Source: Chthoniobacter sp. (GTDB lineage: Bacteria; Verrucomicrobiota; Verrucomicrobiia; Chthoniobacterales; Chthoniobacteraceae). Taken from it: a stretch of DNA of 38,082 nucleotides. The stretch is from contig JAQGOK010000058.1 of assembly GCA_028293645.1 (NCBI GenBank), positions 1 to 38,082 of the forward strand, read 5' to 3'. Shown in pieces: positions 8,411-22,641 of the stretch (its first letter is position 1; each line of letters begins with the position of its first letter). The notes beneath the pieces were generated by a model. The model worked only from the letters and a program-made list of their open reading frames with translations. It was not told where the DNA came from and made no database searches. Position numbers and translations under genes: made by a program.

Positions 8411-10384
8411 CTAGCGAGCCCGCGCGGGAGCCTGGCGGGAAGGTGGCTCCGGTGAAAGCGGGCGCGGCCGGGTGCCACGCGATGGGGCGGTAAGAACGGG
8501 AGCGAGAGGCTCGGACGTGGTCGGCGGGAAGCGGCGAATCGCGCGGGCTGAGCTGTTGGGACCCGCTGGCACTGCCGCCGCGCCGGGACGGGGAGCCGGA
8601 GGTGAGCTGGAGCGCCGGGGCGCGGGAGTCGGCGCGGTGCCTGGTGGAGAGGTGCTGTCCGGAGGACCGACCGGCGCGGTGCTCGGAGGTTTCACCATCG
8701 CTGGCGCCACCGTGCGGGTGACGAACGGTGCGGACGCCGGTTCGTCGTCAAAGTAGATGCCGGTGCGGTCGAGGATCGTGCCGGTCGCGAGCCAGAGCTG
8801 AGTCACGCTTTTGTTTAACTCGGCGAGCGCGGCGAGTTCGCGGCTCTTCGCTTCGTAGAGCTTCCGCTGCGTCTCGATGATGTCGAAGCTGGAGATCTGA
8901 CCTTCCTCGAGGCGCTTGTAGGCGATGCGCACCGCCTCGTCGTTCAACTCGCGAGTCGCGCGCGCCGTGTCCACGCGCTGCTGGTTCGTCAGAATGCGGC
9001 TGATGACCGTATCGACGTCCACACCGAGATTGAGCTCGGTTTGCTTAATCCGCAGGACGGCCTGCTGCTTGAGGCCTTTGACGAGATTGAGCTGCGCGCG
9101 CGGTTGAACGTTGCCCAACGGAATCTGGAAGTTGAGCCCTGCGCTCCATTCGGGCGTGTGTCCTGAGATCGCATCCTGCGCGCTGCTGCCGAAGCTGTTG
9201 TTGAGACCGTTGACGCCATAAGTGCCGACGAGATCGACCTGGGGCCACAGCTGATTCCTTGCGAACCGTAGCCGCACGTCCTGCACGTCTGCCTCGTGGC
9301 GCGCGATCTGGTAGTCGTAGCGCTTCCCAAAAGCGACCCGGAGGAAATCGGGGCGATCGATCTTCGGGACCGGCAGCTGCGGGGCGGTAGTCGGGATGAA
9401 GATGCGCGTATCTTCGGTGCGAAACTCGTCGAGAATCAGGCGCTTCAACGCGAACTGCCGTTCGAGCAGGAAACCCTTCGACATAACGAGCGACTCCCGG
9501 TCCGTGCTGACCGCGACTTCGGCCTGGCGCACGTCGATCGGAGACATGAAGCCGAGCTCCAGGCGGCGCCGGTTTTGGGCGAGCAGCTTCTCACCGGCCG
9601 CGATGGCGTCCTGCTTCACCTCGATGTCGCGCAAGGCGTAAAGCATGTCGTAATAGGTGCCCATCACGGCCTGGACCGAGGTGGCGACACGCTGCTTCCA
9701 GGTGAGGATCTGCGTCTTCTTGTTCAGCCGCGCGATGCGGAGTTCCGCAAGGTTTGCGGCCGGACCGAAGTTCTTCAGCAACGGCTGAATGACCGTCACC
9801 GTCGCGGAAGTGAAATACTCGGGCAAAACCTGCCGGGTATCACCGGAGAAAGTGTTGCGCAGGCGATTGGCTTCCAGGGAGAAACCGTAGCGGGTGCCCA
9901 GCGGGGTGCGGCCTTGCAGCGTGGAGGAAGAGCGATCGTTCTCCTGATTGAAAACCACGCCGTCGATCCCGGCGGTGCTCTGCTCGCGGGAGATCGGCGG
10001 CCGGCCATTTGCAAGGTTGACCGCATCGACAAAATCCTGCTGCGAGCGGATCGCCTCCTCCTGGCGCAAAGCGTCGCTGGTGCGGAGATCATTCGCATTC
10101 TCGGGACGCCGGACCGACTCATGCGAAGTGTTGATCGCGAAGACGGGATCGAAGACGCCCGCCGCACTCCGGCGCCGTGCTTCCTCGACTGAGATGCCGA
10201 CGCGCTCGAACTTCGCGTCGAGGTTGTTTTTCAAGGCCATCTCGATCGCCTCCTGGAGAGCGAGCGTCTGGGAACTCGAGCCTTCTCCGAAGAAATCCTG
10301 CGTTGTGGCGGGTCCGTCACCTGCCCACGCGCTGGAGAGAGAAACAAGGAGGCAGGCGAGCGCCAGCCGGCGGGGGATCAGCAT
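8411..10384 (-). CDS. TolC-family outer-membrane channel with proline-rich C-terminal tail
   Basis: The 657-residue product begins with a signal peptide ending near SSAWA. It continues with two outer-membrane efflux (OEP) repeats rich in long amphipathic helices, such as LALQEAIEMALKNN near the N-terminus and RIAYKRLEEGQISSFDI in the second repeat. TolC-type trimers form the channel through the outer membrane for tripartite exporters. The last 113 residues (545-657) are unusual. They follow the normal end of the OEP fold and contain about 30 prolines, many Ala and Ser, and scattered Arg. The gene is last of a three-gene operon, 3 nt after the M50/HlyD fusion, so it is probably the dedicated outer channel of that exporter. 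Confidence 0.92.
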   Translation of the reverse strand: MLIPRRLALACLLVSLSSAWAGDGPATTQDFFGEGSSSQTLALQEAIEMALKNNLDAKFERVGISVEEARRRSAAGVFDPVFAINTSHESVRRPENANDLRTSDALRQEEAIRSQQDFVDAVNLANGRPPISREQSTAGIDGVVFNQENDRSSSTLQGRTPLGTRYGFSLEANRLRNTFSGDTRQVLPEYFTSATVTVIQPLLKNFGPAANLAELRIARLNKKTQILTWKQRVATSVQAVMGTYYDMLYALRDIEVKQDAIAAGEKLLAQNRRRLELGFMSPIDVRQAEVAVSTDRESLVMSKGFLLERQFALKRLILDEFRTEDTRIFIPTTAPQLPVPKIDRPDFLRVAFGKRYDYQIARHEADVQDVRLRFARNQLWPQVDLVGTYGVNGLNNSFGSSAQDAISGHTPEWSAGLNFQIPLGNVQPRAQLNLVKGLKQQAVLRIKQTELNLGVDVDTVISRILTNQQRVDTARATRELNDEAVRIAYKRLEEGQISSFDIIETQRKLYEAKSRELAALAELNKSVTQLWLATGTILDRTGIYFDDEPASAPFVTRTVAPAMVKPPSTAPVGPPDSTSPPGTAPTPAPRRSSSPPAPRPGAAAVPAGPNSSARAIRRFPPTTSEPLAPVLTAPSRGTRPRPLSPEPPSRQAPARAR

Positions 10385-10387
10385 CGG

Positions 10388-12604
10388 TCAGAAACGGTAA
10401 TCCAGACTGACGAGGTCCAAAAGCGACTGCAAGACCATCTTCCCGAACGGGCGTTTGCCCGCGGAGATGACCGCGCGGCCGGTCATGCCCTGCCGGAGCA
10501 ACGCATCCGAATTCTGCACTTCGATCTGAGCGGCGAAGGTCCGTTCGACGGGCACCTCATGGCCCTCTTTGTCCACGAAGGTGCTCACGTCGCCGGAGCG
10601 CTTGGCGGAAAATGCCGCCGGCATGTTCTTGCCGAGCGGCACGAGCGGCGCACCGGCGATCTTGCCGTGAAAGGTCTGCCCGGGGTAGGCGTTCGCCTTC
10701 AGCTCCACGCGCTGGCCGGGAGCGACGTAGCGCACCTGTTTCTCGTTCAGCGGGATCATGATCCGCATGGGATCGAGCGTGGTCAGTTCGCAGAAGAGGT
10801 CGCCGTTGCGAAGGAGCTGCCCCCGCTTTTTCTCCAGCTCCCGGGTGAGCACGATCCCGTCCTGGGAGGCTTTAAGTTCCAGAGCAGCGACGTTGCGTTT
10901 CGCTTCTTCGAACTCGGCGGCGTAGCGGGTCCGCATGTTTTCGAGTTGTTGCTGCTCGGCCGGTTTTTCGAGCCCGAGCGCGCGCTGCAACTGCGCCTCG
11001 GTCGCACGCAGACGCTGCTCGGTGGTGAGCAGCTTCGACTGTAATTCGCGCATGCTGAGTCGAGCCAGCACCTGACCTTTTTTGACGCGATCGCCTTCGC
11101 GAATGAGCACTTCCTCCACGAAACCGGACACCTCGGGACGAATCTGCTCGGGCTCGGCGAGCTCGACGGCACAGACGCGTTTGATGGTGAGCTCGATCGG
11201 CACGAAGCAGAATCCCAAAAAAGCGGCGAGCGGAATGCCAAAGACGCCGCCGATGCGCCGCCAGCGGCCGCCTGGCTTCAGATCAGCACGAGTGAGTTCG
11301 AGTTTTTGCACAAAGTGAACCATGGGCACGCCGACCCAGCCGATTCCGGCAAGCCAGGCAAACCAATCGGAAAGCCCCTCCAGCCCGAGCGGCTCAAGGT
11401 GAGGCTTCATGAAAATGATCAGCTGGTAAATGATCCAGTAGCCGTAGATCCACGAGAGGACCGCGTAGGTATAGAACAGCCAAAAACGTTTCCGCGGCAG
11501 CGGCAGGCGCGAAAGCATCGCCTCCTTGCCGGTCCCAAAGAGCAGCTTGGTGATCTGATGCTGGATGAGTGCGCGCGACTTCCCCTGCAAGTTGGGAACC
11601 TCGATCAGGTCGGTCAGAATGTAGTAGCCGTCGAACCGCATGAGCGGGTTCGCGTTGAAGAGGATCGTCGAGATGCTCGCGATCAGGATGATGTTGAACA
11701 GGAAGTCCTTGAACCAGCCAGGTTGCACGACGGCCCAGAGAAAGACGGCCAGCGCCGCGAAGATAAGCTCTACGAAGATGCCCGCCGCACTGACCAGCAT
11801 GCGGTGCTTGCGGTTCGGCATGACCCACGAGTCGGTGACGTTCACGAAGAAATACGGCGTGAACACGAGCGACATAAACCCGACCTCGTGAACCTCCCCT
11901 CCGAAGTGTTTGCAGGTGAGACCGTGCCCCAGTTCGTGCACGCTTTTGAGGATGATCGTCGTCACCCACATCAACGCGAGGTTCTCCCAATGGAAGATGT
12001 CGGCAAATGCCTGATCGAGCCCTTCTGCGTTCTTTAAGAAGACAACGACCGCCGCCGCAACGAGGGCGATCGAGATCCACATGGCGGTTTTGGTCCAGAT
12101 CCACCAAAACGGTTTCGCCATCTTGCCGAAGATAACGTCGGGGTCGAAAAGCGACTTTCGAAAGAAGAACAGCTTGTTCGTGAATGCGTAGATCCCGCCC
12201 GACTTCGCTTTCGCCTTCTTCTGCGCCTCAAACCGTGCCTTCAGTCGCATCCCCTGAACGCTCAGGAACTGCAGCATCGCGAGGTCGTTCGCGAAGCGGA
12301 GCACCCGCTCATTAACCTCCTCGGGCGTGTATTCCAGCGGCACGTGAGGGAAGCGCTTTTGGTAAGCCTCGCGCACCTGGCCAAACGTGCGCGCGCCGTC
12401 GAAAAGCGTGGCGAGGTAATAATCCTCGCTCGTCATCCGGAAGTACTGCAGCGAGATCGGATCTTTGACGACGTAGTAAGTGCGGCCTTCGTATTGCTGC
12501 TGCGTGATGAGCAGATCTTTACGGAGCGGCGGCATGACCACCTGCTCCTGCTGAGGAGGAGGCGCCGGAGCGATGGGCTCCGGCTGAACGGCGACGGCAG
12601 ACAT
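10388..12604 (-). CDS. PqqD-like/M50 intramembrane protease/HlyD adaptor fusion
   Basis: This 738-residue protein combines three parts. Residues 1-25 are Pro/Gln-rich. Residues about 28-120 resemble a PqqD-type peptide-binding fold (YYVVKDPISLQYFRMTSEDYY). Residues about 160-475 form a multi-span M50 (site-2-protease-like) zinc protease with HELGH at 223-227 and NPLMRFDG at 319-326 giving the third ligand. Residues about 476-738 are a HlyD-like adaptor: a biotinyl-lipoyl half motif (VSGFVEEVLIREGDRVKKG), a coiled coil around 517-580, and a beta-barrel. Related proteins are annotated as putative peptide zinc metalloproteases or efflux adaptors. It sits between a separate HlyD-type adaptor gene (12 nt upstream) and a TolC-like gene. 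A role in processing and exporting a peptide or protein is inferred; the substrate is unknown. Confidence 0.9.
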   Translation of the reverse strand: MSAVAVQPEPIAPAPPPQQEQVVMPPLRKDLLITQQQYEGRTYYVVKDPISLQYFRMTSEDYYLATLFDGARTFGQVREAYQKRFPHVPLEYTPEEVNERVLRFANDLAMLQFLSVQGMRLKARFEAQKKAKAKSGGIYAFTNKLFFFRKSLFDPDVIFGKMAKPFWWIWTKTAMWISIALVAAAVVVFLKNAEGLDQAFADIFHWENLALMWVTTIILKSVHELGHGLTCKHFGGEVHEVGFMSLVFTPYFFVNVTDSWVMPNRKHRMLVSAAGIFVELIFAALAVFLWAVVQPGWFKDFLFNIILIASISTILFNANPLMRFDGYYILTDLIEVPNLQGKSRALIQHQITKLLFGTGKEAMLSRLPLPRKRFWLFYTYAVLSWIYGYWIIYQLIIFMKPHLEPLGLEGLSDWFAWLAGIGWVGVPMVHFVQKLELTRADLKPGGRWRRIGGVFGIPLAAFLGFCFVPIELTIKRVCAVELAEPEQIRPEVSGFVEEVLIREGDRVKKGQVLARLSMRELQSKLLTTEQRLRATEAQLQRALGLEKPAEQQQLENMRTRYAAEFEEAKRNVAALELKASQDGIVLTRELEKKRGQLLRNGDLFCELTTLDPMRIMIPLNEKQVRYVAPGQRVELKANAYPGQTFHGKIAGAPLVPLGKNMPAAFSAKRSGDVSTFVDKEGHEVPVERTFAAQIEVQNSDALLRQGMTGRAVISAGKRPFGKMVLQSLLDLVSLDYRF

Positions 12605-12616
12605 CGAGGCGAGCCT

Positions 12617-13348
12617 CTACCGCGCGGCGCTCAGCTTTGCAAAGTCCGCGGTGCCACGCATGCCAGCCTTGATCTTGTGATCCTGGTTTTCCATCAGCAG
12701 TTTTACCCGAAAGAGGCCACTGCCGGCATCAATACGAGGATCGATGAAAGCGACCGTGCCGGTGAACCGCTCCGGCCCGATGACAGGGAAGCGGACGCCG
12801 ATCTCGGTGTCCTGCCTCATCGCCGCCATCAGCTTTGGGTCGAGGTAAAATTGCACGTAAACCTGATCGATATTGACGATGTCCATCAGCTTCTCGACGC
12901 GATCGACCGCTTCACCCGCCTCCTTGTACTTCTTCACCACGATCCCGGCCAGGGGAGCGCGAATGGTCTTTTCCTTAAGACGGACTTCCGCCTGCCGGAG
13001 TTGAATTTGCGCGAGCTTCAGCTCGGTTTGGCGCTCCAGCGCAACTTCCTTGCTCCCGATCTTCTCGTTGAAAAGCTTCTGTGCGCCCTCTGCGGTAAAC
13101 CGGCGCTGCTCGACGACCTGCTGAGCCTGTTGCACTTCGAGTTCCTCTTTCTCGCGACGCAATTCCAGGATGACCTGGTCCGCTTTGACCGCGTCGCCTT
13201 CCTCCACGAGAACATGCTCAATGACCTCCTGCAAAACGGGCGAGCTGACACTGACCTGTTTGATTGGCAGCACCAACCCCTGAACATCTTCGGCGCGCGT
13301 GAACGTGAGCCAGGCGAAGAAGAAGTAAACGAAGAGAACAGGTTTCAT
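12617..13348 (-). CDS. HlyD/RND-type periplasmic adaptor protein
   Basis: The 243-residue product has a signal peptide (MKPVLFVYFFFAWLTF) and a short barrel-sandwich adaptor layout. The first lipoyl half is near VSVSSPVLQEVIEHVLVEEG. A Glu/Gln-rich helical hairpin follows at about 60-125, then the second lipoyl half IRAPLAGIVVKKYKEAGE and a beta-barrel ending in GMRGTADF. Such adaptors bridge an inner-membrane transporter to a TolC channel. Its first 20 possible upstream codons (from 13408) are ignored because the signal peptide begins at 13348. It is the first gene of the minus-strand export operon. The fold is short for a full-length RND or HlyD adaptor. Confidence 0.88.
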   Translation of the reverse strand: MKPVLFVYFFFAWLTFTRAEDVQGLVLPIKQVSVSSPVLQEVIEHVLVEEGDAVKADQVILELRREKEELEVQQAQQVVEQRRFTAEGAQKLFNEKIGSKEVALERQTELKLAQIQLRQAEVRLKEKTIRAPLAGIVVKKYKEAGEAVDRVEKLMDIVNIDQVYVQFYLDPKLMAAMRQDTEIGVRFPVIGPERFTGTVAFIDPRIDAGSGLFRVKLLMENQDHKIKAGMRGTADFAKLSAAR

Positions 13349-13394: not shown

Positions 13395-13512
13395 GTGTTT
13401 TGTGGCAAAGGCGGAGGTCACACGGCGTTTGAGCAGTTCGATGCAACGGTTCGGCCGGAGCGAAGCACTGTGGTCTGGAGGAGGGGAGCCACATTCACCC
13501 GGCGAAAGAGAG

Positions 13513-14939: not shown

Positions 14940-15644
14940 ATGAAGCCTGTTTCACGCTTCCCAAGTTGGGCATGCGCGGTTGCGATTTGCGCATTCAGCG
15001 GAACGGCGGCGAAAGCTGCCATCGTGGTTGAGATTGCTGCACAAGACCTGCAGACAGAACAGCTCGGCACATTGTTCCCGACAAACGCTCTCGTCCAGTT
15101 GGTGAACCTCGGAGCTGACGGTGCATTCAACCCGATTGCGCTGGGAGATGGCGGCAGCCAGTGGGTCAGCGGGGACGATACGCTTCTGAGCTTCAACATT
15201 GGCAGTTCTGAAGGGCACACCACCGATCGGTTCGATGTGGCTGAGGGAGCGGGACAAACGGGATTCCTCCTGCGAACCTTCGACTTCTCCGCGGTACCCA
15301 CCGGGACGAGGCTCGGCATCCGGTGGTTCCCGGCAATCGCCGCCACGGCGTTCGACGCCACCGGTAGTGCGCTGATGGCGGATCAGACTCGCTACGGACA
15401 GTTTACGAGGCAGGGTGCGCCTTTGAACGCGGAAGGGGACCCTACCGTGATCCCGTGGATTGTCCCGGCTAACGTCGTCGGGGTTACGCAAGCGTTTCGC
15501 TTCGATCCCCTCGTTACTGCCACGCAAGGTGGCGCCGATCCGAATTCTGCCGGGGTGGCTGGTCAGACGGTTATTCCAGAACCTTCTTCCGCGCTTTTGC
15601 TCGCGTTTGGTGCGCTCGGTATGCTCGCAAGGCGGAGGCGATAA
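14940..15644 (+). CDS. PEP-CTERM sorting-domain protein
   Basis: The 234-residue product has a signal peptide ending near AAKAA and a beta-rich, low-charge middle. Its C-terminus is a complete PEP-CTERM signal: PEPSSA, then a short hydrophobic helix (LLLAFGALGMLA) and a terminal RRRR cluster. PEP-CTERM proteins are exported and then processed by an exosortase (EpsH/XrtA type), usually in organisms that make exopolysaccharide. No exosortase gene is in this window. The gene begins 3 nt after the TIGR02597-like gene and ends 33 nt before a strong terminator. Confidence 0.92.
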   Translation: MKPVSRFPSWACAVAICAFSGTAAKAAIVVEIAAQDLQTEQLGTLFPTNALVQLVNLGADGAFNPIALGDGGSQWVSGDDTLLSFNIGSSEGHTTDRFDVAEGAGQTGFLLRTFDFSAVPTGTRLGIRWFPAIAATAFDATGSALMADQTRYGQFTRQGAPLNAEGDPTVIPWIVPANVVGVTQAFRFDPLVTATQGGADPNSAGVAGQTVIPEPSSALLLAFGALGMLARRRR

Positions 15645-15677: not shown

Positions 15678-15712
15678 AAGAAGGCAAGCCGTGAGGCTTG
15701 CCTTCTTTTTTT
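15678..15712 (+). terminator. intrinsic terminator after the PEP-CTERM gene
   Basis: A perfect 13-bp stem (15678-15690 with 15695-15707) closes a GTGA tetraloop and runs directly into a T tract (about 7 T within 15706-15712). This is a textbook rho-independent terminator. It lies only 16 nt before the gspF start codon. Confidence 0.93.
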
Positions 15713-15728
15713 GCTCCTCTATCTGGTC

Positions 15729-17018
15729 ATGCCGCAATTCCGCTACACCGCACGGCAGTCTGACGGGAAGCTGGTGAATGGCGTTCTTGCCTGCACCGAT
15801 CGCTCCGCCGCAATCGTGGAGGTGGAAAAGCAAGGTGGGACTCCGATCAAAATTGAGCCGATCGCCGAGGGAGCGGGTAAGCCAGCGCTAAAACCGGAGC
15901 TGAGCAAAGCGCGGCAGAGCACGCCTCCGAGCAGCAGCGCAGCGATCTCCCCGGCTGCGGGAGCGGTCACCACGCTGGGCCACACTCAGCAGTATCTCTT
16001 CACAGAGCAGCTCGCGCATTTGCTGAGCGCCGGAATGACGCTCGATGAGGCTTTGGAGATTCTGGTTCGTCGGATGAAGCATCCCAAGCTGCAGAGTCTG
16101 TCGCAGTCGCTGCACCGCGCGTTGGTCGATGGAAGAAGCCTTTCGCAAGCGATGCGGGATTTCCCGCGGATCTTTACCCCTCTCTACGTGAACCTCGTCT
16201 CCGCTGGTGAGGCGAGCGGCGCACTGCCTGACATTCTCAAGCGGTTGGTGGCACATCTCGCGGATGTGAAATCCCTTCGCGATCGTGTGCAACAGGCGTT
16301 GATTTATCCCGCTGTCCTCGTCGTCGCCGGCATCGGCCTGATCGTCGTTTTCATGACGGTCATGGTGCCGAAGCTCACGGTTTTCTTCAAAGGCTCGGGG
16401 CAGCCTTTGCCCGCGGCGACTCGACTGCTCGTCTCGGCGAACTATGTTTTAACGCACTATTGGTGGCTTGGGATTCTCATCGGATTCGGACTCTTCAGTC
16501 TCTGGAAAGTGATGACCCGCACGCCGGAAGGCCGCCGTGCGTGGGATGCGTTCACCTGGCGCATTCCGGTCTATAGCCGGATTATCCGTTACCGCTTCTA
16601 TGCGCAGTTTGCCCGTACGTTGGGCACATTGATCGAAAATGGAGTCACGTTGCTTCGCGCTCTGGAGCTTTTGGAGGAGATCTCGGGAAATGAATACGTG
16701 AGGATCCGAATGGTCTCCGTCCGCACTGCAGTGGTGGATGGAGCGACGCTTTCCACCGCCCTCGGCGAACAAGGGATTTTTCCAGAGCTGTTTGTTGATA
16801 TGATGGCGGTAGGCGAGCAGTCCGGGCGCTTTGGCGGCACGATGCAGATGATCGCGGACGTCTATGAGCGTGAGCTCGATAAGCAAATCCAGATCGTCTC
16901 CACGTTGATCCCGCCAATGGTCATGGTCGTGATCGCGGCGGTGGTTGGGTTGGTGGTTTATGGAATCCTCAGTGCGGTTTTTGGCCTCACCTCGGGCTTG
17001 CGTGGAAATATAGGCTAG
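15729..17018 (+). CDS. gspF: type II secretion inner-membrane platform protein GspF
   Basis: The 429-residue product has two T2SSF repeats. The first (about 90-215) includes FTEQLAHLLSAGMTLDEALE and VSAGEASGALPDIL followed by a membrane span. The second (about 295-420) includes FARTLGTLIENGVTLLRALELL, VGEQSGRFG and a C-terminal span. GspF is the polytopic core of the inner-membrane platform and contacts the secretion ATPase. The N-terminal domain is followed by a Ser/Ala/Pro linker at about 50-80. The start at 15729 (ATG) matches the usual PxFxYxAxxxxG opening (MPQFRYTARQSDG); the frame extends back only to a TTG in the terminator tail. No Shine-Dalgarno sequence is visible. The related type IV pilus protein PilC is an alternative, but the neighbouring pseudopilins favour T2SS. 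Confidence 0.93.
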   Translation: MPQFRYTARQSDGKLVNGVLACTDRSAAIVEVEKQGGTPIKIEPIAEGAGKPALKPELSKARQSTPPSSSAAISPAAGAVTTLGHTQQYLFTEQLAHLLSAGMTLDEALEILVRRMKHPKLQSLSQSLHRALVDGRSLSQAMRDFPRIFTPLYVNLVSAGEASGALPDILKRLVAHLADVKSLRDRVQQALIYPAVLVVAGIGLIVVFMTVMVPKLTVFFKGSGQPLPAATRLLVSANYVLTHYWWLGILIGFGLFSLWKVMTRTPEGRRAWDAFTWRIPVYSRIIRYRFYAQFARTLGTLIENGVTLLRALELLEEISGNEYVRIRMVSVRTAVVDGATLSTALGEQGIFPELFVDMMAVGEQSGRFGGTMQMIADVYERELDKQIQIVSTLIPPMVMVVIAAVVGLVVYGILSAVFGLTSGLRGNIG

Positions 17019-19845: not shown

Positions 19846-21059
19846 AAGCGGCCGAAGACACTGAACTTCGCATGCTCGTTGGGCAGCAGATCCGGTTCGC
19901 CCGAAGTAATCGTCCAGGCTTCCAATTCTTTCTCACCCTTCAATTTCTGGACGTACTCGATGGCTAGGATGGCGCTCGGTGCCTCACCGACGACTTTCCA
20001 TTGGGAGGGCGAGTGTTCGAACTCGGTGATCAAGACCTCGGCGGAAGGCAGATTCTTATGGATCTGATGCAGGATCTCGATCGTCGAGCGACTTGGATCA
20101 AAAGCCGGGCGAAGCTCGTTCCACCGGAGTTCGCTTTCCTGGATTGCCTTCAGCTGCGGCTGGGTGGCGGCGACCTGCATCGCGAGCTTCTGTGACTCGT
20201 TTTTCAGCCACGCGAGATACACGAAGGCGCCCGCAACGAGCAGGAGGTAAAGCACAGCGCCGAGCAGCAACCGCTGCTGCAAACGTTCGCCGCTCTTCAG
20301 GCGACGGGCATCCGCCTGCCACGCCGCGGGAACCAGATTGCCTGAAGGCTCGGGCAGCGTCACGTCCAGGGCGATCAACTGGACAGGAACCCCGAACTGC
20401 TCACGCAAGGGCTCAGTAAGCTGCGCAAAACTACGCTCCAGCTGCACACTCGCGAAGTTCGTGGGAACCCCATCGATTTCGGCCGACAGCAAGAGCTGCG
20501 GCAACTCCTCCGTCAGCGCCGCCGCGTCAATCCCGGAGAGCGTTTGCGCCCAGCTCAATTTCCCGCGCTCACAGATTGCCGCCACGAACTGGCCTTGCTC
20601 TGCGTAGATCGCCAGCACCGTTTGGTCCGCCGGGCAGACGGCCGCCACATGCATCGCAAACAGCGTGATCTTTTCCGGCAACCTTGCCTGCGCGAGCAGG
20701 GGACCGCACAGCTCATCGAGCTGCCCGCGATGCGCGGCGACGGCGAGCAGCGTTGACTCGTGTTCCGCGGATTCGATCACTTCAAAGTCGCTCGAAACTT
20801 CTTCGGTGGGATACGGCAGCGTCTTTTCAAACTGCAACGCCAGCATGCCCGCAAGTTCCTCGCGGTCAGTCGCGGGCAACTTGATCCGTTCGATCAAAGC
20901 GATCTGACACGGCAGCGCGAGCCGCACCGCCGTTTTCAAAGGCAGCGCTGCGGCGGCTTCGCCAAGGGTAGGGAAGTTCCGCGCGGCAGCGTTGCCGTGT
21001 CGGAGGCGCCAGCCCTCCGCATCAGGGCTGATCAGAGCGTCATTGGCCGAAGACTTCAT
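19842..21059 (-). CDS. gspL: GspL-like assembly protein (PilM-like/PilN-like fusion)
   Basis: The 405-residue product has an N-terminal cytoplasmic part (about 1-245) with the actin-like pattern of PilM/GspL (LKTAVRLALPCQIALIERIKLP, then LALQFEKTLPYP). One membrane span follows at about 262-285 (LLLGAVLYLLLVAGAFVYLAW), then a coiled coil and a periplasmic PilN-like domain (about 315-405). GspL links the GspE ATPase to GspF and GspM in the T2SS platform. It overlaps its neighbours by 4 nt on both sides, indicating tight translational coupling. Confidence 0.8.
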   Translation of the reverse strand: MKSSANDALISPDAEGWRLRHGNAAARNFPTLGEAAAALPLKTAVRLALPCQIALIERIKLPATDREELAGMLALQFEKTLPYPTEEVSSDFEVIESAEHESTLLAVAAHRGQLDELCGPLLAQARLPEKITLFAMHVAAVCPADQTVLAIYAEQGQFVAAICERGKLSWAQTLSGIDAAALTEELPQLLLSAEIDGVPTNFASVQLERSFAQLTEPLREQFGVPVQLIALDVTLPEPSGNLVPAAWQADARRLKSGERLQQRLLLGAVLYLLLVAGAFVYLAWLKNESQKLAMQVAATQPQLKAIQESELRWNELRPAFDPSRSTIEILHQIHKNLPSAEVLITEFEHSPSQWKVVGEAPSAILAIEYVQKLKGEKELEAWTITSGEPDLLPNEHAKFSVFGRL

Positions 21060-21970
21060 TCTTTCCAGGAGAGGATTTGGGGCTTTCGGACGACTACGTC
21101 CACCTGCTTATACACACTTCCCGAGTGACCTTCGCTGATGATGTGCAGCGTCGTGTCCTGGTGGGTGACGAGTCCGGCCCATGCCTGCTTTTGCTGTGGA
21201 TTAAATCCGAGGAAGCGCTCGACGTCCGCGAGCGACTTAAACTCGTTGTCGTCGGCGGTGCCATCGACTCCGTCGCGGCCGCGCCGGATTTGCAACAGAC
21301 GCGTGATCTGCGCTTCGCCCAGGCCCGGCACAAGGCGCAGGATCTCCGGGGTGGCCGCGGTGACGTCGATCGGCCCGAGGCTTTCCAGTGTGAGATCCTG
21401 CTCCCAGCCCGGCGTCCGCGTCAGCGCCTCAGCACCACGCACCTGAGCGATCTCTTCGATGCTCTCCAGCGGCGCGTTGCGCGGAGCGTAATCGGGCTCC
21501 GCCTCGACGCCATTCAATCGGTGCGCGTCACCATCGTCATCGACCCAATCGAGCAGGCAGTCCGCGAGAATCTCCCGTTCCTCGAAGTTCAGCCCACGCT
21601 GCTCGAGCCACTGTTTCAAGATTGTCAGCCGGCGCGGGTCGTCGCCCTGCTCGAGCAGCCAGCGCATGTTCAAGCGCCCGCCTTCGCTAATGATGCGCAC
21701 CTTGTAACCAAGCGCGCCGCTGAAGCTTTCTTCCAGCCCCGGCGTTCGTTGGCTGACCTTTGGGTGCCGCGCGATGGCAATGCCCGAATACGCCATGGCG
21801 CGCGCTTCGATCTCGCGGTTCGCCTGCCCGTGCAGAACGATGTCCTGCTGCACCCATTTCGCAAATGCGAACACTGCGGCCGAAAGCATCAACAACGCCC
21901 AAAGCACCAGCAGCAACGCGGAGCCGGCGCGGCGTTTTCCTGAGCCCAAAGGCATCGGATCGGTGATCAT
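21056..21970 (-). CDS. gspK: minor pseudopilin GspK
   Basis: The 304-residue product has a short basic leader and a hydrophobic segment, RRAGSALLLVLWALLML, with no Glu at mature position 5, as is typical for GspK. The large helical body contains LDWVDDDGDAHRLNGVEAE and the helix-hairpin-helix-like segment around LRLVPGLGEAQITRLLQIRRG, both usual in GspK. GspK caps the pseudopilus tip together with GspI and GspJ. The start overlaps the gspJ stop by 4 nt (21967-21970). Confidence 0.93.
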   Translation of the reverse strand: MITDPMPLGSGKRRAGSALLLVLWALLMLSAAVFAFAKWVQQDIVLHGQANREIEARAMAYSGIAIARHPKVSQRTPGLEESFSGALGYKVRIISEGGRLNMRWLLEQGDDPRRLTILKQWLEQRGLNFEEREILADCLLDWVDDDGDAHRLNGVEAEPDYAPRNAPLESIEEIAQVRGAEALTRTPGWEQDLTLESLGPIDVTAATPEILRLVPGLGEAQITRLLQIRRGRDGVDGTADDNEFKSLADVERFLGFNPQQKQAWAGLVTHQDTTLHIISEGHSGSVYKQVDVVVRKPQILSWKE

Positions 21971-22641
21971 CGGATGTTCGCGGAAGGGACCGGGAGGATG
22001 GCGTCATACGGGACGTCGTCCGCAGTTTTCCAGATCTTCACGTGCACGAAGCTCGGCCGTTGCGCCGGGTTCGTCCACTGCTGCAATTCCGTCTTCAGGC
22101 CGGGATCCCAATAACGAATCTCCATGGCCGCCACCGACGCAATCAACGGCAGCCAGTTGTAGCGCGTGGTGCCGCTTCCTTTTGAAAAGAAGTCCGCGTC
22201 CGATTTTTCTTCGGAGCTGACGAGCTCCCGACGCAGCCCGAGTTCCGTTACTGCCTTGTCATTTTCCGAAGGCTGCAACGCCAGCGTCACGCGATACTCG
22301 CCCGGCGCGGCGCCGGTCAGCACACCCTGACCGGCGCGGCAGAGCCAGGTCATTTCATCGCTCTGCAGATCGCGGAATTTATACGCTTTCCCGAGCAGCA
22401 GATTGCTGCCCTTCACCGGCAGATCGTTGAGCTGCGTTTGGATCAGCTTCGTGACGGCTTCGATTTCCTGCCGCTGCGAGGTGATCTCGGTCATCGCGTT
22501 GATCGCGGTCAGTGTCGTCGAGATGAAGCGGTAGAGCACCATCATCAGCAGCGCGATCACGAACGTCGCAGTCATCACCTCCAGCAACGTGAAGCCAGCC
22601 CGTCGCCGTCGCGGCGCGTCAGTTTTGCCGGCGATACACAT
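21967..22641 (-). CDS. gspJ: minor pseudopilin GspJ
   Basis: The 224-residue product has a 16-residue basic leader ending RRRRAG before FTLLEVM, with Glu at mature position 5, then a hydrophobic helix and a beta-rich C-terminal domain (EYRVTLALQPSE, MEIRYWDPGLKTELQQW). GspJ is part of the pseudopilus tip complex with GspI and GspK. The start at 22641 overlaps the gspI end by 23 nt, which fits the compact gsp order H-I-J-K. Confidence 0.92.
   Translation of the reverse strand: MCIAGKTDAPRRRRAGFTLLEVMTATFVIALLMMVLYRFISTTLTAINAMTEITSQRQEIEAVTKLIQTQLNDLPVKGSNLLLGKAYKFRDLQSDEMTWLCRAGQGVLTGAAPGEYRVTLALQPSENDKAVTELGLRRELVSSEEKSDADFFSKGSGTTRYNWLPLIASVAAMEIRYWDPGLKTELQQWTNPAQRPSFVHVKIWKTADDVPYDAILPVPSANIR

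Follow-up and report, generated by a model that had tools for sequence, protein, structure and literature searches.

We examined an operon that encodes a periplasmic adaptor, a membrane protease fused to a second adaptor and an outer-membrane channel, and no pump. The operon lies on the minus strand, at 8411-13348, of a 38,082-nucleotide stretch of Chthoniobacter sp. DNA that was analysed at its full length and is referred to here as the window. Its three genes, all on that strand, are tightly packed, with intergenic gaps of 12 and 3 nt. The first gene (12617..13348) encodes a small periplasmic HlyD/RND-type adaptor with an N-terminal signal peptide (MKPVLFVYFFFAWLTFTRA); its 243 amino acids are counted from the ATG at 13348, the ORF opening at a TTG at 13408, and it matches Pfam HlyD_D23 (3.1e-18) and NCBIfam RND_mfp (4.6e-37, above the cut-off). 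The second (10388..12604) encodes a 738-amino acid fusion of a PqqD-like domain, an M50 intramembrane protease and an HlyD adaptor, assigned from Pfam (Peptidase_M50, 3e-6; HlyD_D23, 9e-22), NCBIfam, a family alignment, AF2 and Foldseek. The third (8411..10384) encodes a TolC/OEP outer-membrane channel of 657 amino acids with a proline-rich C-terminal tail (Pfam OEP, 1.1e-38). Orthologs of the small adaptor occupy the same position in the loci of relatives, and a TolC/OEP ortholog lies immediately downstream of the fusion there. These coordinates, gaps and Pfam matches confirmed the three-gene layout that had been proposed in a sequence-only reading of the window. Its statement that the operon contains no ABC, RND or MFS transporter was upheld: none is encoded in the operon, and no pump is conserved beside the 12 orthologs either. 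A scan for the ABC signature returned only 8 genes across all loci, scattered and none of them in the 12-member ortholog group.

Elsewhere in the window, we noted a PEP-CTERM protein near the operon (14940-15644; Pfam 2.7e-5), which is part of another sorting system, a T2SS F-type protein at 15711-17018 and, separate from the latter, T2SS K-like and N-methylation-motif pseudopilin-like genes at 21056-22641.

Domains of the fusion protein

The N-terminal PqqD/RRE-like domain of the fusion spans residues 18-122 (12239..12553) and has a beta-beta-beta-alpha-alpha-alpha arrangement. When searched with Pfam PqqD, the single window protein gave a match that was not significant (E=0.24), and 16 of 50 family members matched at E up to 1, the best at 1e-4. 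In a search of PDB sequences with a 50-member profile of residues 18-122, PqqD (3g2b, 4.8e-5) was the best match, followed by TfuB1 (6jx3, 0.0067) and TbiB1 (5v1u, 0.012). The AF2 model of the domain alone had a pLDDT of 92.2, and its top seven PDB matches in Foldseek were PqqD 5sxy plus TbiB1 and TfuB1 with leader peptides, at a probability of 0.99-1.00 and a TM of 0.60-0.75, with weak E values (0.01-0.09). Because both the family profile and the modelled fold match PqqD and RRE-leader complexes, we take the domain to be homologous to the PqqD/RRE leader-binding fold; leader binding itself is predicted. The sequence-only reading had called this region PqqD-like and had suggested a profile alignment, which has now been run and agrees with the fold. 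The window domain has its fold and profile in common with the lasso-peptide B1 and PqqD leader-binding proteins (TbiB1, TfuB1 and PqqD) but, unlike them, forms one polypeptide with a membrane protease and an adaptor.

The zinc site of the protease proposed in that reading is intact. The zinc motif HELGH is located at residues 223-227 (11924..11938), and H223, E224 and H227 are invariant in 74 family members. In the second M50 motif, NANPLMRFDGYY (residues 317-328; 11621..11656), the 74-member comparison revealed that N317, D325, G326 and Y327 are invariant and that N319 and P320 are conserved at 99%. The third zinc ligand, D325, sits within NPLMRFDGYY, and the fusion therefore has both HExxH and the third ligand Asp that are used to recognise M50 site-2 proteases. 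The PqqD-like region and M50 core (residues 49-365) also align with the Daptide/YydH intramembrane metalloproteases (NF041824, NF058609; E=4e-45); however, the fusion scores 154.6 bits against the NF041824 cut-off of 300, its HlyD part lies outside the model, and its candidate cargo is mostly large. The remaining HlyD/MexA-like adaptor part (10448..11200), with an alpha-hairpin at residues 519-573, was assigned from AF2 and Foldseek, in which it matched MexA (1vf7, E 2e-13), AcrA and MacA. In the AF2 model of the whole fusion (50 sequences; pLDDT 87), the N-terminal beta-beta-beta-alpha-alpha-alpha domain is followed by a helical membrane part and the MexA/AcrA-like adaptor with its alpha-hairpin.

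The wider module and its clades

We searched 57 relatives of the window genome and 195 genomes of the phylum, read about 80 loci and obtained genome-wide counts by profile searches. In ten orthologous loci (L073, L074, L075, L076, L077, L078, L080, L081, L082 and L083), the gene order was GAF-HlyD, HlyD, M50 fusion, TolC. The system had been read as one of three genes; these three are present in the window, but the module has four components. In the window genome, a draft that is 79.6% complete, the GAF-HlyD ortholog (63% identical) is on another contig, C47, and in G010 it is also located away from the operon, on C27. In a subgroup of clade A (see below), a 613-amino acid protein with sigma-70 regions 2 and 4 is encoded between GAF-HlyD and HlyD (L091, 4285-6126).

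A tree of 74 fusions resolved three clades, A (23 rows, including the window), B (27 rows) and C (24 rows). A SecA_DEAD gene is adjacent in none of the 23 clade A loci and in 20 of the 27 clade B loci, and clade C is without SecA. With respect to a pump ATPase beside related operons, which the sequence-only reading had named as evidence against its proposal, the outcome is divided: there is none in the window clade, and SecA_DEAD adjoins the module in clade B. The window genome has a clade B locus too (L070; G000:C122, 2-15791), with GAF-HlyD, M50-HlyD and SecA_DEAD. This secondary SecA_DEAD gene is the only one found in the genome, and the housekeeping SecA presumably belongs to the 20% that the draft does not cover. 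The clade B SecA is dispensable for clade A, since the SecA-type module is missing from G012 and G024, both of which carry a clade A module. The C122 locus also contains a divergent giant gene with CARDB repeats, of which 3205 amino acids lie within the locus in a 5079-codon open frame with the N terminus FKLEALEQRELLSA.

Loci of this kind have been described. Kamneva et al. 2015 (PMC4452313) reported SecA_DEAD / Peptidase_M50-HlyD / GAF-HlyD / HlyD loci, with or without OEP, and proposed a role in secretion; the broader role was termed completely unknown, and neither a substrate nor a PqqD domain was given. The M50-HlyD, GAF-HlyD, HlyD and OEP genes are homologous to those studied here, an ABC transporter is lacking in both, and clade B matches the published loci in make-up, whereas the window clade has no SecA_DEAD at the locus. 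The window operon is a SecA-less variant of this published, uncharacterised module. The sequence-only reading had suggested that it could be an under-described export or maturation system; loci of the kind, with SecA, were already in print.

An N-terminal motif in candidate cargo

To look for cargo, we considered the large proteins encoded beside the modules. Those beside clade B modules have an N-terminal motif of the E.LE.R.LLSA type, and those beside clade C modules have F.LEDR[VI]LF (e.g. LEDRVLFE). Some large neighbours were unrelated genes (a tRNA synthetase, histidine kinases), and only proteins with the N-terminal motif were used. A 23-position motif profile retrieved a further variant, LExRIAPA, in clade A genomes, as well as pairs of 110-130-amino acid peptides with LESRELFAAAAVP (LESRELFAAA). 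The latter belong to f15/g33 loci (L087, L111, L112 and L113), in which two LESRELFAAAAVP peptides, a P-loop protein, a radical SAM/SPASM protein and a free PqqD (Pfam 5e-8) precede the module; in these RiPP-like loci the P-loop protein looks HprK-like by eye, and CP_ATPgrasp and Alpha-E proteins follow the module. The clade B motif resembles LEPR-XLL (NF012209), which was matched by 5 of 18 large clade B neighbours and by none of the six window-genome LExRIAPA proteins scanned; nor did these six match any other NCBIfam leader model.

Ten LExRIAPA matches (E up to 0.1) were obtained in the window genome, among them a protein with 11 Calx-beta repeats (L190) and one bearing a cyclophilin domain (L191), and none is encoded near the operon in the window. 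In L083, a 1596-amino acid IEVLESRIAPA protein is encoded directly upstream of GAF-HlyD/HlyD/M50/TolC, on the same strand and 93 nt away; in G007, a 1602-amino acid IEPLEARIAPA protein is encoded 120 nt upstream of a clade A GAF-HlyD gene, again on the same strand, and that gene runs off the contig end. A Sec-like hydrophobic stretch was seen in only 2 of 46 motif proteins versus 31 of 41 HlyD and 21 of 28 TolC proteins. Open frames that carry the motif run to between 13,800 and 22,500 codons in G073, G144, G238, G209, G070 and G010:C91. In clade C cargo candidates (L129, L139, L141, L143 and L147-L152), DUF4347 follows the LEDR motif, and the neighbouring OEP of L134 has Sel1 repeats. As a general mark of cargo, DUF4347 was rejected, being confined to clade C among the loci read, and a family search of the 57 relatives of the window genome, run with no positive control, gave no match.

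The sequence-only reading had suggested a peptide or membrane-bound substrate, possibly encoded by a conserved short ORF nearby. No short ORF recurs in the window ortholog group, and short precursor-like ORFs are found only in the f15/g33 loci. A class of candidate substrates with a common N-terminal motif was found, but most of its members are large proteins of surface type whose genes lie away from the operon. We conclude that the LExRIAPA-type sequence is probably a tag recognised by the export apparatus, which makes its bearers the predicted cargo set.

The association between module and motif is strong, both genome-wide and by position. Among 40 genomes of the family, 13 have a window-type M50, and all 13 encode LExRIAPA proteins (median 15). 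At least three such proteins were found in 12/13 module genomes compared with 1/27 genomes without the module (Fisher p=3e-8; here and below the test ignores relatedness, so the p-values overstate significance). Of the latter 27 genomes, 23 gave no match and two gave a single weak one, whereas G007 has two and G009 has 22. Genera of mixed composition partly offset the effect of relatedness, as does the adjacency described below: in g1, the window genome has 10 LExRIAPA proteins and four other genomes have 0, and in g6, six module genomes have 3-22 whereas four without the module have 0, 0, 0 and 22. Family genomes with only the SecA-type module (G002, G003, G011, G027 and G249) gave no LExRIAPA match. 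Across the 195 genomes of the phylum, the A3 (E.LE.R-type) motif was found in 20/23 genomes with A/B modules versus 0/172 others (p=2e-24), and the C motif, for which only matches with E below 1e-5 were taken, in 16/18 genomes with C modules versus 1/177 others (p=2e-20). At these thresholds, no genome showed cross-over of the two motifs between module classes, and the variant thus tracks the clade. The M50 gene has a motif gene no more than 10 kb away in 12 of 20 A/B genomes (0.25 expected) and 10 of 16 clade C genomes (0.22 expected), figures that are inflated by the fact that some seed motifs were drawn from these same loci. This origin of the seeds does not explain the absence of the motif from many module-free genomes.

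The exceptions are as follows. G146, G239 and G242 have a module and no A3 match, G123 and G147 have module C and no C motif, and G117 has the C motif and no module. G007 is only an apparent exception, as its clade A GAF-HlyD gene reaches the contig end. In G009 (96% complete), which encodes 22 LExRIAPA proteins, neither an M50 fusion nor GAF-HlyD was found; this reflects either an assembly gap or real loss of the module, and G009 is so far an exception.

A proposed export route and its alternatives

Overall, we consider it likely, with some reserve, that the operon encodes the central part of a system dedicated to exporting and maturing proteins with an N-terminal [IL]ExLExRIAPA leader. Within the fusion, the leader would be bound in the cytoplasm by the PqqD-like domain and then cut by the M50 domain at the inner membrane. 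A putative cut at the end of the motif would be in keeping with the small residues (APA, LSA, FAA) found there. The HlyD parts of the fusion, the free adaptor and GAF-HlyD (from C47 here) may form a mixed ring of up to three adaptors, from which the TolC-type channel would release the cargo to the surface or the outside. In clade B, the SecA-like ATPase would be the obvious motor, and clades A (the window) and C are without a dedicated one. The sequence-only interpretation is partly supported, and the pump-like role that it gave to the protease is conjectural.

The lack of such an ATPase at clade A and C loci is what gives some weight to the view that the fusion only binds and clips the leader, the cargo crossing the inner membrane by housekeeping Sec and being carried outward from the periplasm by HlyD and TolC. 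The module of G012 and G024, which occurs without a SecA-type module so that this SecA is dispensable, fits the same view. The scarcity of Sec-like hydrophobic stretches in the motif proteins (2/46) and the placing of a SecA-like ATPase inside the module itself in clade B argue against it, and we regard it as somewhat unlikely, if the strongest of the alternatives. That module and motif proteins are simply co-inherited with a surface-rich lifestyle, the motif serving another anchoring or sorting pathway, would account for the 22 motif proteins of G009, a genome in which the module was not detected. It would not be expected to place motif genes beside modules far above chance, to set giant genes in L083 and G007 immediately before the operon on its own strand, or to make motif variants follow the module clade with no cross-over, and it appears improbable to us.

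We give little credence to two further explanations. HlyD and OEP are efflux-pump families, and the operon could belong to an ordinary tripartite efflux system with its pump encoded elsewhere; however, no pump is conserved beside the 12 orthologs, and the PqqD-like and M50 domains, conserved throughout, have no place in efflux, which makes this very improbable. Marginally less probable again is that the fusion is a site-2 protease under regulation, with an anti-sigma-like membrane protein as its target and the HlyD part serving as the sensor. M50 family membership, the GAF domains of the partner protein and the sigma-70-type protein encoded in L091 between the GAF-HlyD and HlyD genes are compatible with such a protease, but the co-directional TolC gene 3 nt away, the three adaptors and the cargo association are not readily accommodated by it.

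The dedicated export route that we favour resembles type I secretion (HlyB-HlyD-TolC) in the HlyD-type adaptor and TolC-type channel of the window operon but differs from it in that the operon and its orthologs have no ABC transporter and the candidate signal is N-terminal. More tentatively, and with slightly less than even confidence, we suggest that the modules represent a Gram-negative secretion class with its own N-terminal leader, read by a PqqD/RRE-M50-adaptor fusion, with cargo as small as peptides of ~110 residues, which may be modified, and as large as proteins that are thousands of residues long (motif frames reach about 20,000 codons) and with no dedicated ATPase in clades A and C. 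The predicted cargo and leader, which come from co-occurrence, adjacency and matched motif variants, are likely new as far as the literature searched goes: no paper linking the motif to the module was found in that search, outside which preprints and most subscription papers lay, and none of the papers found names an export system for LExRIAPA proteins. The proposal connects the M50/HlyD loci of 2015 with the LEPR-XLL-type N terminus of very large bacterial proteins, both of them orphans. It predicts which proteins depend on which module, supplies a short, testable leader and offers a possible way in which giant surface proteins leave the bacteria that are rich in them. If true, leader recognition by PqqD/RRE domains would reach beyond small modified peptides and include large proteins.
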